A DNA stretch of 15,062 bases from Desulfobulbaceae bacterium (lineage in GTDB: Bacteria; Desulfobacterota; Desulfobulbia; Desulfobulbales; Desulfocapsaceae), in contig JAUVON010000032.1 in NCBI GenBank assembly GCA_030599175.1, positions 1 to 15,062 of the forward strand, given 5' to 3'. Shown here piece after piece: positions 9,259 through 12,248 of the stretch (within the stretch, counting starts at the first letter, position 1; each line of letters begins with the position of its first letter). The position numbers and the translations under genes are program-made. The notes under the pieces were generated by a model. It did not search any database. It was given only the letters and a program-made list of their open reading frames with translations, and had not been told where the DNA came from.

Positions 9259-9306
9259 TTAGTGTTCTCCCGACAGGAGTTCACATCATTTAAAACAGGA
9301 GGATGG

Positions 9307-10830
9307 ATGAAAGTATTAAAATTAGCTTTAACGATGTTTGTACTGGTTTTGTTAAGTTTGCCATGTGTTTTGTCGGCAGCACCCCAGGGTACCTTGCGAG
9401 TGGGGTTAAGTGCCATGCCCAATGCTATTGATCTACCCATGAGTTCAGAACGAAATGCTCACAATGTAAGTTGGCAGATATATGATCCGCTGGTCTGGAC
9501 CGATGATAGTGGCAAGTCAGTGCCTGCACTGGCGGAAAGCTGGACGGTTTCCAAGGATGGTACGGCATACACCTTTAAATTACGTAAAGATGTGGTCTTC
9601 CACAATGGTGAACCCTTTAATGCCGATGCCGTAGTGTTTTCATGGAAACGCGGCAGTGGCACAAAAATGCAGTGGAAGGATAAATGGGCCATGGCAGAGT
9701 CGGTTAAAAAGATTGATGACTATACTGTGACTATTGCCACCAAAGGGCCTAACCCTCTGATGCTTCGAATGCTGTCGGAATACTGGGCAATGGTTCCACC
9801 CAAGTACCATGCCGAGGTAGGTGAAAATGGTTTTCAGAAACATCCTGTAGGTACCGGGCCATTTATGTTTAAACAGTGGAAAAAAGGTGACAGAATTATT
9901 TTTGAAGCTAACCCGAACTATTACGAAAAAGGGTTCCCAAAAGTCAAAAACCTGATCTTCCGTCCAATCCCCGAATCCAGCACCCGCGTGGCAGCTATTA
10001 AGACAGGTGAAATTGATATTGTAACACGTTTAAGTGCGGAAGAAGCAGATAGTTTAAAAGGGGCGTCAAATGTCAAGATGAAAACGTACCCGGTTGACAG
10101 GGTTTATTATATCACATTTAACAATCTGACTTCGGGTAAGGGTAAACCCACTGAAAACCCACTGGTGCGCCAGGCAATGAACTATGCAGTGGATGTGGAT
10201 GCCATCATAAAAGCACTTCTCAACGGCCATGGAGTTCCAATTGCCGGTTTTGTAACCTCTGAGAACTGGGGCTTTGATAAGGACAATAAGCCATTTGGTT
10301 ATGATCCTGAGAAAGCAAAAAAACTGCTTGCTGAGGCAGGGTTTCCCGATGGCTTTGAAATTGATTTTGCTGCTCCTGCTGGTGCGTACACCAATTTTGA
10401 GCAGGTTTGTCAAGCCATTCAGGGCTACCTTGAAGCTGTTGGTATCAAAACCAATCTTGACATTATGGAATCCGGTAAATACTGGAATATGGAAGCTAAA
10501 AAGGAATTGCCGCCACTGTTTGGTGACAGTTGGTCCGAGGCTACAGGGGAGGCTTTACCCCGCTTAAAAGGTTCTCTTGGAGGAATGAAGGCCAGTTATT
10601 CAGCCTGGTCTGATCCGAAAATCGACGTTCTGCTGGAGAAAATAGGTACAACTGTGGATGATGATGCCCGGGCAAAGTTATATGTCGAATTGCAGGGCTA
10701 TATGATGGAAAACCCTCCGTTTATTTATCTCTATCAGCCAGTTACGTTTGAGGCAATGAACCCCAAAGTTAAAGATTATAAGCCCCGTGCGGCTGAAAAT
10801 TACTACCTCAAAGGTACATATCTGGAATAA
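9307..10830 (+). CDS. ABC transporter substrate-binding protein, family 5 (Dpp/Opp/nickel type)
   Basis: Periplasmic receptor of the second importer. I place the start at ATG 9307, not at 9262, because AGGAGG (9297-9302) sits 4 nt upstream and because translation from 9307 gives a clean signal peptide: MKVLKLALT, hydrophobic core, then LSA before a predicted cut after residue 24. The protein is 507 residues. Family hallmarks are YDPLVWTDDSGKSVPALAESW near 55-75, FKLRKDVVFHNGEPFNADAV near 90-110, GTGPFMFKQW near 185 and AMNYAVDVDAI near 295. P19-C20 gives a poor lipobox, so a soluble periplasmic protein is more likely than a lipoprotein. Family ligands include di- and oligopeptides, nickel, heme and sugars; this one is unassigned. 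A hairpin and a MITE-like element separate it from its permease genes. Confidence 0.9.
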   Translation: MKVLKLALTMFVLVLLSLPCVLSAAPQGTLRVGLSAMPNAIDLPMSSERNAHNVSWQIYDPLVWTDDSGKSVPALAESWTVSKDGTAYTFKLRKDVVFHNGEPFNADAVVFSWKRGSGTKMQWKDKWAMAESVKKIDDYTVTIATKGPNPLMLRMLSEYWAMVPPKYHAEVGENGFQKHPVGTGPFMFKQWKKGDRIIFEANPNYYEKGFPKVKNLIFRPIPESSTRVAAIKTGEIDIVTRLSAEEADSLKGASNVKMKTYPVDRVYYITFNNLTSGKGKPTENPLVRQAMNYAVDVDAIIKALLNGHGVPIAGFVTSENWGFDKDNKPFGYDPEKAKKLLAEAGFPDGFEIDFAAPAGAYTNFEQVCQAIQGYLEAVGIKTNLDIMESGKYWNMEAKKELPPLFGDSWSEATGEALPRLKGSLGGMKASYSAWSDPKIDVLLEKIGTTVDDDARAKLYVELQGYMMENPPFIYLYQPVTFEAMNPKVKDYKPRAAENYYLKGTYLE

Positions 10831-10847
10831 TCGCACGCCATCACTAT

Positions 10848-10880
10848 ATCGGCGTTCATCATCTATGACTGAACGTCGAT
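10848..10880 (+). terminator. Hairpin just after the Dpp-type binding protein gene
   Basis: ATCGGCGTTCA (10848-10858) pairs with TGAACGTCGAT (10870-10880): 11 bp with one G-U and an 11-nt loop, starting 17 nt after the stop codon. No clear T run follows (TTAATAAT), so it may stabilise the 3' end or partly terminate transcription. The mobile element's left target duplication overlaps its last two bases. Confidence 0.45.
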
Positions 10881-10887
10881 TAATAAT

Positions 10888-11134
10888 CAGTAGTGTCCTG
10901 TTAACGAATTGCATAGCGTCAAAAACGGCTTCATGGGTTACTTTTGTCCGCTTTTGGCAGTAGATTTCTTGATTTTCAAATATTTTTCACATCCAATTTG
11001 TATCATGCGAGTTCCTCGCAGAGACTGATACAAATCAAATGCAAAAATATTAAAAAATGTTACGAAATTTACTGGATGACGCTCCCAAAAGTTACCCACG
11101 AATCCTCCTGCATGATCTAAACCGGACACTACTG
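10888..11134. mobile_element. MITE-like non-autonomous element, 247 bp, palindromic, with 9-bp target duplication
   Basis: Terminal inverted repeats CAGTAGTGTCC (10888-10898) and GGACACTACTG (11124-11134) are perfect over 11 bp, and after one mismatch three more bases pair. The element is flanked by the direct repeat ATTAATAAT (10879-10887 and 11135-11143), as expected of a target-site duplication. The two halves are diverged inverted copies. GGGTTACTTTTG (10935-10946) matches 11086-11097 at 11 of 12. CAGTAGATTTC (10958-10968) matches 11064-11074 at 10 of 11. AATATTTTT (10979-10987) matches 11043-11051. ATTTGTATCA plus TGCGA (10996-11010) meet their exact complements at 11016-11035 around a 5-nt loop. 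There is no intact transposase, so an autonomous IS with these ends would be needed for movement. It sits between the binding protein and permease genes. Confidence 0.82.
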
Positions 11135-11246
11135 ATTAATAATAGGAAAATTGTTAACTATTCGGGTGGTTAAATTCAACATTAAGGGGACATAAGACAT
11201 TTACTTCTTGTTGAGTTTTACCCTACCTGAATAGCCGCCACTATAG

Positions 11247-11284
11247 CTGCAATGTAGCAGATGAAGAATTTTACGAATCCATCG
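11247..11284 (+). repeat. Degenerate copy of the fold-back repeat 3' end, ahead of the dppB-type gene
   Basis: Aligned without gaps to 9136-9173, this segment matches at 25 of 38 positions by eye, with shared blocks CTGCAA, AGAT and TTTTACGA and a shared CCAT. It ends 13 nt before the ATG at 11298. Upstream, TCAACA and TGTTGA (about 11177-11215) could be the decayed centre of the same palindrome. CTATTCGGGT (11158-11167) also pairs with ACCTGAATAG (11225-11234) with one G-U, so the whole 11144-11297 leader may be structured. Confidence 0.4.
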
Positions 11285-11297
11285 AAGGTGGGATCAT

Positions 11298-12248
11298 ATG
11301 CAACGCTATATTCTTTCCCGTTTATTTCAATCCTTTATAATGCTGGTCGGCGTGCTGTTTATTGTTTTCTTTATGCTTCAGCTCACTGGAGATCCTGTTG
11401 CGCTGATGGTATCTCGTAACGCCTCTCCTGAGCAGGTTGAAGAATTGCGTGAGGAACTGGGATTTAACCGTCCAGTGATGGTGCAATTTGCCGATTTTAT
11501 AAGCAAGGCAGTGAGAGGGGATTTTGGTATGTCCCTGCGCCATAACCAACCAGCTATGGAGCTTATTCTTGAGCGGCTGCCTGCCACCGTGGAGCTTGCT
11601 TCCATTGCTTTGCTCTTTGCCATGGTTGTGGGAATACCGCTGGGTCTGCTGGGAGGGGCAAATCCGGGCAGCATCTGGGATGCTTTTGCCAGAGGGGCAG
11701 GGCTTATAGGCCAGACTATACCTAATTTCTGGCTGGCCTTGATCTTAATCATGGTTTTTGCTGTTAATCTGGGCTGGTTTCCCTCTTTCGGCCGGGAAAC
11801 CTGGCAATTTATGGGCCTTGCTCTGCCGACGAAATCCGTAGTACTTCCGGCTTTTGCCCTGGGGTTGTTTACCATGGGGCAATTAGTACGTTTTACCCGG
11901 TCAGCCGTACTGGAAATCAAAAATGAAGATTTTGTACGAACGGCATATAGCAAAGGACTGGCTGACTGGCGTGTCTATGTCAAACATATCCTGCGCAATG
12001 CCGCCATTCCTTTGATCAGTATTCTCGGGGTCCAATTCGGTTATCTTTTGAGTGGCTCCATTTATATCGAAACCATATTTTCCTGGCCGGGCCTTGGTAA
12101 TCTCCTTGCTGAATCCATTGGCAACAGGGATTTTGCCCTGGTACAGGCAATTGCATTTTTCACCAGTCTTGTTGTGGTCTCACTCAACCTGACGGCTGAT
12201 ATTGCTTATGGAATGGCTGACCCGAGAATCAGATATGGAGAACAATAA
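11298..12248 (+). CDS. dppB: Dipeptide/oligopeptide-type ABC transporter permease, DppB type
   Basis: Inner-membrane permease of the second importer, 316 residues, normal for DppB/OppB. The N-terminus MQRYILSRLFQSFIMLVGVL then FFMLQLTGDPV is the family opening, followed by a periplasmic region with LREELGFNRPVMVQFADFI and GDFGMSLRHNQP. The ATPase-coupling EAA-like loop is RTAYSKGLADWRVYVKHILRN near residues 215-235, and IYIETIFSWPGLGNLLAESI near 255 is also diagnostic. The ribosome binding site is GAAGGTGGG around 11284-11292. The symbol denotes family only; substrate may be peptides, nickel or other solutes. It overlaps nothing and runs 2 nt from the next gene. A repeat-derived leader precedes it. 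Confidence 0.93.
   Translation: MQRYILSRLFQSFIMLVGVLFIVFFMLQLTGDPVALMVSRNASPEQVEELREELGFNRPVMVQFADFISKAVRGDFGMSLRHNQPAMELILERLPATVELASIALLFAMVVGIPLGLLGGANPGSIWDAFARGAGLIGQTIPNFWLALILIMVFAVNLGWFPSFGRETWQFMGLALPTKSVVLPAFALGLFTMGQLVRFTRSAVLEIKNEDFVRTAYSKGLADWRVYVKHILRNAAIPLISILGVQFGYLLSGSIYIETIFSWPGLGNLLAESIGNRDFALVQAIAFFTSLVVVSLNLTADIAYGMADPRIRYGEQ

Follow-up and report, generated by a model that had tools for sequence, protein, structure and literature searches.

The window analysed here, a stretch of 15,062 nucleotides from a Desulfobulbaceae genome, contains on the same strand a gene for a solute-binding protein of family 5 and a gene for an ABC transporter permease. Between the two genes lies a 247-bp palindrome flanked by short direct repeats, which an earlier note had described as a MITE with a 9-bp target duplication. 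Both copies of the exact duplication, the 11-bp perfect terminal inverted repeats and the location between the two transporter genes could be retrieved as described there. The features of the locus are as follows:

9262-10830, plus strand: extracellular solute-binding protein, family 5 (PF00496)
10848-10880, plus strand: native hairpin immediately downstream of the binding-protein gene (z -5.6, equalled by 0 of 200 shuffles)
10879-10887, plus strand: left target-site duplication ATTAATAAT, which shares its first 2 bases with the foot of hairpin 10848-10880
10888-11134, no strand assigned: MITE of 247 bp, an imperfect palindrome over nearly its full length, free of ORFs of at least 80 aa
10888-10902, plus strand: left terminal inverted repeat CAGTAGTGTCCTGTT, with 1 mismatch after 11 perfect bp
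10984-11047, no strand assigned: arms of the central hairpin with the 3-nt loop 11012-11014 between them, strongly conserved among copies
11006-11020, plus strand: apical hairpin TGCGAG-TTC-CTCGCA, directly followed in some sister copies by a 16-nt insert that the window copy lacks
11120-11134, minus strand: right terminal inverted repeat, inward reading CAGTAGTGTCCGGTT
11135-11143, plus strand: right target-site duplication ATTAATAAT, read from the sequence
11298-12248, plus strand: ABC transporter permease (PF00528, PF19300)

The perfect ends, CAGTAGTGTCC at 10888-10898 and its inverted copy at 11124-11134, continue beyond 11 bp with one mismatch (CAGTAGTGTCCtGTT versus CAGTAGTGTCCgGTT). According to a repeat search of the window the outer arms comprise 24 nt, the duplication counted in, with 92% complementarity, and in BLAST the MITE aligns to its own reverse complement across 10879-11143 (67%, E 8e-10). 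The DNA folds into one long hairpin (z -8.9), as does the RNA of the MITE stretch (z -9.2), and in both cases 0 of 200 shuffles were as good. The sequence is thus a palindrome over nearly its full length, as had been claimed. The 5-nt loop placed earlier at 11011-11015 has to be revised, since in the fold G11011 and C11015 form the closing pair and the innermost loop consists of the 3 nt 11012-11014. The ORF list, with its minimum of 80 aa, contains no ORF overlapping 10888-11134.

The number and distribution of related copies were then assessed by sequence searches. In the host genome (2.9 Mb in 430 contigs, 87% complete), BLAST returned 39 rows for the MITE, corresponding after subtraction of 7 opposite-strand self-matches to about 32 distinct places with whole or partial copies, of which many are truncated by the end of a contig. 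The end motif CAGTAGTGTCC occurs 26 times in the 2.9 Mb versus 3 times for the reversed control. Nine copies with both ends are flanked by exact 9-bp duplications, all of them different, so that the further copies and the differing duplications anticipated from the window were both found:

C36 (window copy): ATTAATAAT, exact 9 bp
C372: TGTTTACAT, exact 9 bp
C339: GGTTAGAAT, exact 9 bp
C62: ATTCAAAGT, exact 9 bp
C35: ATACTCATT, exact 9 bp
C74: AATTTTACC, exact 9 bp
C189: ACTTGAAGT, exact 9 bp
C169: ATTATTTTT, exact 9 bp
C348: AGGAAAATT, exact 9 bp

Five of these nine are shorter copies of 68-171 bp that have kept both ends. The flanks of two further copies in the same genome agree at 8 of 9 positions (C382) or do not match (C371). 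Across the genus, matches to the MITE are present in five of seven genomes, own counted, with none in G001 and in the single-contig genome G006; the other six genus assemblies are fragmented, with a completeness of 72-88%. Altogether 12 of the 193 genomes searched, own included, contain a match. In another genus of the same family (G056, G039 and G090), copies likewise have recognisable ends and exact duplications. No match to the MITE was obtained in the plasmid and phage collections.

For eight sister insertions the flanks were joined with one copy of the target and searched against the seven genus genomes. Continuous empty alleles with a single target copy, exact or with 1 mismatch, were detected at five of the eight sites: C348 (9-mer exact in G002, 8/9 in G005), C169 (exact in G005; the alignment in G002 is gapped at the join), C62 (exact in G002, where the alignment covers 185 of 230 bases; 8/9 in G005), C74 (8/9 in G002) and C35 (8/9 in G005, with an alignment over 154 of 213 bases). 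At the C339 site the alignment runs through in G001 and is poor (82%, 6 of 9 target bases), at the C189 site G005 holds a different insertion, and for the C372 site no continuous allele was found in the seven genus genomes. At the window site itself, G002 and G005 have both transporter genes and a spacer without the MITE. These orthologous spacers contain no single ATTAATAAT and are too diverged, so that the absence of the MITE there falls short of proof of an empty allele. Empty alleles of the kind sought in the earlier note thus exist at sister insertions; for the insertion in the window, an allele with a single ATTAATAAT was not recovered.

These data bear on the alternative that the palindrome serves the transporter operon as a regulatory hairpin or a domesticated structured RNA and is not a mobile element. 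Its very stable fold, the covariation of its arms described below and its site between a binding-protein and a permease gene on the same strand would all fit such a role. Against it stand the dispersal over about 32 places, the empty alleles of sister insertions, the exact target duplications of 9 bp and, in two congeners, an orthologous spacer free of the MITE; we consider it very improbable. A known structured RNA family was also rejected as a candidate, since Rfam at gathering thresholds gave 0 matches in the window.

To trace the origin of the ends, species genomes were sampled for CAGTAGTGTCCGGTTWRRA, which yielded at least 114 stretches from many bacterial groups. Some of the matches listed there represent elements that bear these ends and measure about 1.2-1.3 kb; three of those listed (L090, L155 and L185) combine the same ends with exact 9-bp duplications, and six more listed end pairs enclose a long frame and have no duplication (L094 reaches the end of its stretch). 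The element L155, from a Syntrophaceae MAG, is 1323 bp long and has an exact 9-bp duplication. Its protein matches DUF4372 (7e-33) and DDE_Tnp_1 (1e-30) as well as NF033592, 'IS4 family transposase' (3e-80, 270 bits, cut-off 115), and the L085 protein likewise contains DUF4372 and DDE_Tnp_1 and scores above the NCBIfam cut-off of NF033592. The right end of the MITE is identical in 15 of 15 positions to at least one end of L090, L155, L185, L096, L188, L085, L094 and L099; across all 11 aligned IS the agreement extends over 15 bases in eight and 12 in the other three, with 17 of 17 for L188. Relatives of the L155 protein are present in 80 of 193 genomes searched. Among 30 transposase loci of such relatives, 18 have ends of the form CAnTnnTGTCY together with an exact 9-bp duplication, 3 have a duplication of another length and 9 have none. 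A scan of viral contigs for the ends gave one contig, in which the adjoining sequence resembles, by eye only, the tail of such a transposase.

In the host's own genome neither DUF4372 (PF14294) nor the L155 transposase gave a match, and no such ends were found in the stretch surrounding its two DDE_Tnp_1 matches. Since this genome is an incomplete bin, the autonomous element may be missing from it. The L155 transposase has no match in six of the seven genus genomes, G001 and single-contig G006 included, and a distant one (32%) in G002. The prediction of an autonomous IS with the same ends was therefore confirmed for other bacteria, where it belongs to the IS4 family, and not for the host genome.

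The shared ends could also mean that the MITE is an internally deleted IS4 element that has kept its ends and nothing else (a type I MITE), the palindrome having arisen by chance or by a later inverted duplication. The 15-bp ends and the duplication length of 9 bp, both shared with IS4-family elements, agree with this, as do the derivatives of 68-171 bp with both ends and duplications in the host genome, since they demonstrate that internal deletion does occur in this MITE family. When compared by blastn with the 11 IS, all of which come from outside the host genus, the MITE matches at the ends over 12-18 bp, the other matches being 8-16 bp long with E values of at least 0.01. In tblastn the longest frames of nine of the IS gave nothing better than E 0.16 against the MITE (L090, whose longest listed frame is on the other strand, and L096 were left out). 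The likeness to the 11 IS ends within about 18 bp, and the MITE is therefore no simple deletion of those elements. Moreover, each half of the MITE corresponds, along the length, to the reverse complement of the other. An origin by internal deletion is thus unlikely, and the earlier view of a diverged inverted duplication rather than a simple deletion derivative can be upheld. An IS fragment with a broken gene was discarded as well, as there is neither an ORF of at least 80 aa nor a transposase remnant detectable with the nine frames.

Overall, judged from its sequence, the element is very probably a non-autonomous palindromic MITE that was moved in trans by an IS4-family transposase of the DUF4372 plus DDE_Tnp_1 group; the observation of the earlier note is confirmed and its interpretation, taken as a whole, supported. 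Such a transposase, now gone from the lineage or missing from the genome bin, would have recognised the ends, excised the MITE and inserted it with 9-bp staggered cuts. The MITE would thereby have been placed next to a pre-existing hairpin, at its 3' foot, in the spacer that separates the binding-protein gene from the permease gene.

The target of the MITE begins at the foot of this hairpin (10848-10880). The matching place also folds in the two congeners that lack the MITE there, with changed sequence, in G005 with z -4.9 (0 of 200 shuffles as good) and in G002 with z -2.9 (3 of 200). A read-through transcript of the window locus would gain a second, very stable hairpin, which could shield the message upstream of it and reduce the expression of the permeases encoded downstream. 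The MITE hairpin in the transcript may in this way alter the ratio of binding protein to permease. Scans of 10780-11330 for promoter and terminator patterns were empty; a reading of the element as terminator or promoter was therefore rejected, and an effect on the operon draws no support from the pattern scans. A short stretch between the MITE and the permease gene (window 11201-11234) is repeated elsewhere in G002 (C180, C158).

Furthermore, the relation between the two arms was analyzed in an alignment (A3) of 15 full-length copies from two genera. Fragmentary copies were excluded, and five of the 20 copies of alignment A2 (G004_C415, G039_C221, G000_C62, G090_C525 and G002_C171) were omitted owing to long insertions or great divergence. 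Of 1253 cells 92.9% are paired, compared to 36-46% with one arm slid, a control that keeps relatedness and favours a structure derived from one sequence. Both sides have changed in at least one copy at 19 of 84 pairs, the cells changed on both sides number 41, and the covariation score is 0.128 versus 0.075. For each of these four measures 0 of 500 shuffles were as high, in a control that ignores relatedness; the number of further pair types, taken as the fifth measure, did not exceed the shuffles (163 of 500). RNAalifold gave a similar result (20 of 83 pairs). The arms thus change together as the copies diverge, which means that the pairing is kept.

Arm pairing may be maintained via arm-to-arm template copying (quasipalindrome correction), by selection, or by both. 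If copying during replication were the sole cause of the covariation, the hairpin would need no function. In favour of copying are insertions of about 24 nt, which occupy opposing stem positions and are mutually complementary in the three copies where both arms are visible (L021 at about 1275 and about 1440; L076, 1413-1723; L237 at about 782 and about 964), as templated copying would give. Two further copies (L025 and L253) have a 24-nt insertion in one arm, with the other arm outside the examined stretch, and no copy was found with such an insertion in one arm beside a visibly empty other arm. The smaller inserts of 16-17 nt described below, when near the right end or at the third site, are present in one arm only (e.g. 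L005, L022), which argues that arm copying is not general. Moreover, selection for pairing would yield identical covariation counts. Copying as the only cause has become less probable as most of the small inserts occupy one arm, and we give it somewhat less than an even chance.

These small inserts of 16-17 nt, GATA(A)GCGTAGACTTCG and variants, lie in the sister copies exactly between A and A. The 16-nt block GATAGCGTAGACTTCG is present or absent with exact boundaries among sister copies, and the window's own copy reads CTCGCAGAGACTG, without the insert. Filled and empty places were counted by regular expressions on the fetched loci and merged by their flanks. At the apex site, after CTCGCA, 8 places are filled and 32 empty. 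At the right-end site, after T(T)GCA, 14 are filled and 20 fit the empty form; two of the latter, L111 and L212, were not fetched through the MITE itself and probably fit by chance. At a third site, TTAAGA^AAATAC, a 17-nt form GGTAAGCGTAGACTCCG is found in L022 and a variant in L237, giving 2 filled and 26 empty places. Loci with the insert, in the MITE and in other repeats, include:

L005: 399-414
L054: 1634-1649
L237: 914-930 and 1013-1028
L021: 1489-1504
further loci: L006, L022, L040, L238, L298-L327

The block is also found in other repeats. At the site AATAATGCTCGCA^ATATCA, loci from genus genomes carry the block, and L036 of the host's own genome has the empty form; the remaining repeat contexts of the insert were judged by eye. 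In the own genome there are 35 exact occurrences of GCGTAGACTTCGA, and 59 of the 257 genomes in the order, the host's included, contain dispersed copies of a longer form, the reversed control giving 0 in each row. Two single-contig genomes contain 21 and 11 exact copies, respectively, versus 0 for the reversed pattern, and an assembly artefact was rejected on this ground. Among 107 distinct contexts of a wider motif in the fetched loci, an A precedes in 101 and an A follows in 105, the latter count being biased because the pattern used to fetch many of the loci itself ends in A.

Further dispersed repeats were noticed alongside. One, containing GATGGCTAAGTTAAAAAGTTTGATA, lies at about 267-326 of G000:C35 in the host genome and at many places in the genus, with dozens of matches, and copies of a repeat like it carry a 17-nt insert by eye. 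The contexts L300-L327 of G049:C1, a single-contig genome, represent a further repeat family, in which variants such as GGTAAGCGAAGACTCCG seem, again by eye, to be located at one upstream point.

Tentatively, and with rather more doubt than confidence, we propose that one of the smallest mobile sequences, a unit of 16-17 nt, G(A/G)TA(A)GCG(T/A)AGACT(T/C)CG, uses the palindromic MITEs of this order as landing sites. It would leave no target duplication and enter precisely between two A residues, usually as GCA^A, both in the MITE and in repeats unrelated to it, single-contig genomes included. To our knowledge, there is no transposition mechanism that obviously works at a length of 16-17 nt.

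The MITE itself belongs to a known class, and the micro-insert, with its exact filled and empty states within one genome, is the more surprising lead; together with the covarying arms it raises the interest of the MITE. What is now available is a testable bacterial fold-back MITE for which a probable transposase group is identified, congeners show empty alleles of sister insertions, and the arms covary across two genera. How the two arms of palindromic elements stay matched can thereby be tested directly.

When compared to known systems, the MITE has in common with the NF033592 group of the IS4 family (DUF4372 plus DDE_Tnp_1) the terminal CAGTAGTGTCCGGTT and the 9-bp target duplication. Elements of that group are about 1.3 kb long and encode a transposase, whereas the MITE has 247 bp, lacks a transposase, is palindromic throughout and has an interior unlike the 11 compared elements. 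The Nezha MITEs of cyanobacteria are bacterial MITEs with terminal repeats and related full-length IS. They resemble the present MITE in their terminal repeats and their related IS, and differ in being shorter and in their hosts. ERIC and Correia-type palindromic repeats are likewise short, dispersed and intergenic and can fold along their length; their target and end sequences differ, and the MITE makes 9-bp duplications. Intercistronic REP hairpins, e.g. of malE-malF, provide a precedent for a stable hairpin between binding-protein and permease genes, as predicted here from the sequence, with the difference that REP units are not MITEs of the present kind. For the micro-insert, the small dispersed repeats (SDR) of cyanobacteria, reportedly described by Elhai and others in 2008 with about 21-27 nt, are the closest parallel known to us. 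The likeness consists in very small repeated inserts within other repeats; the SDR belong to another phylum, have another sequence and are longer.
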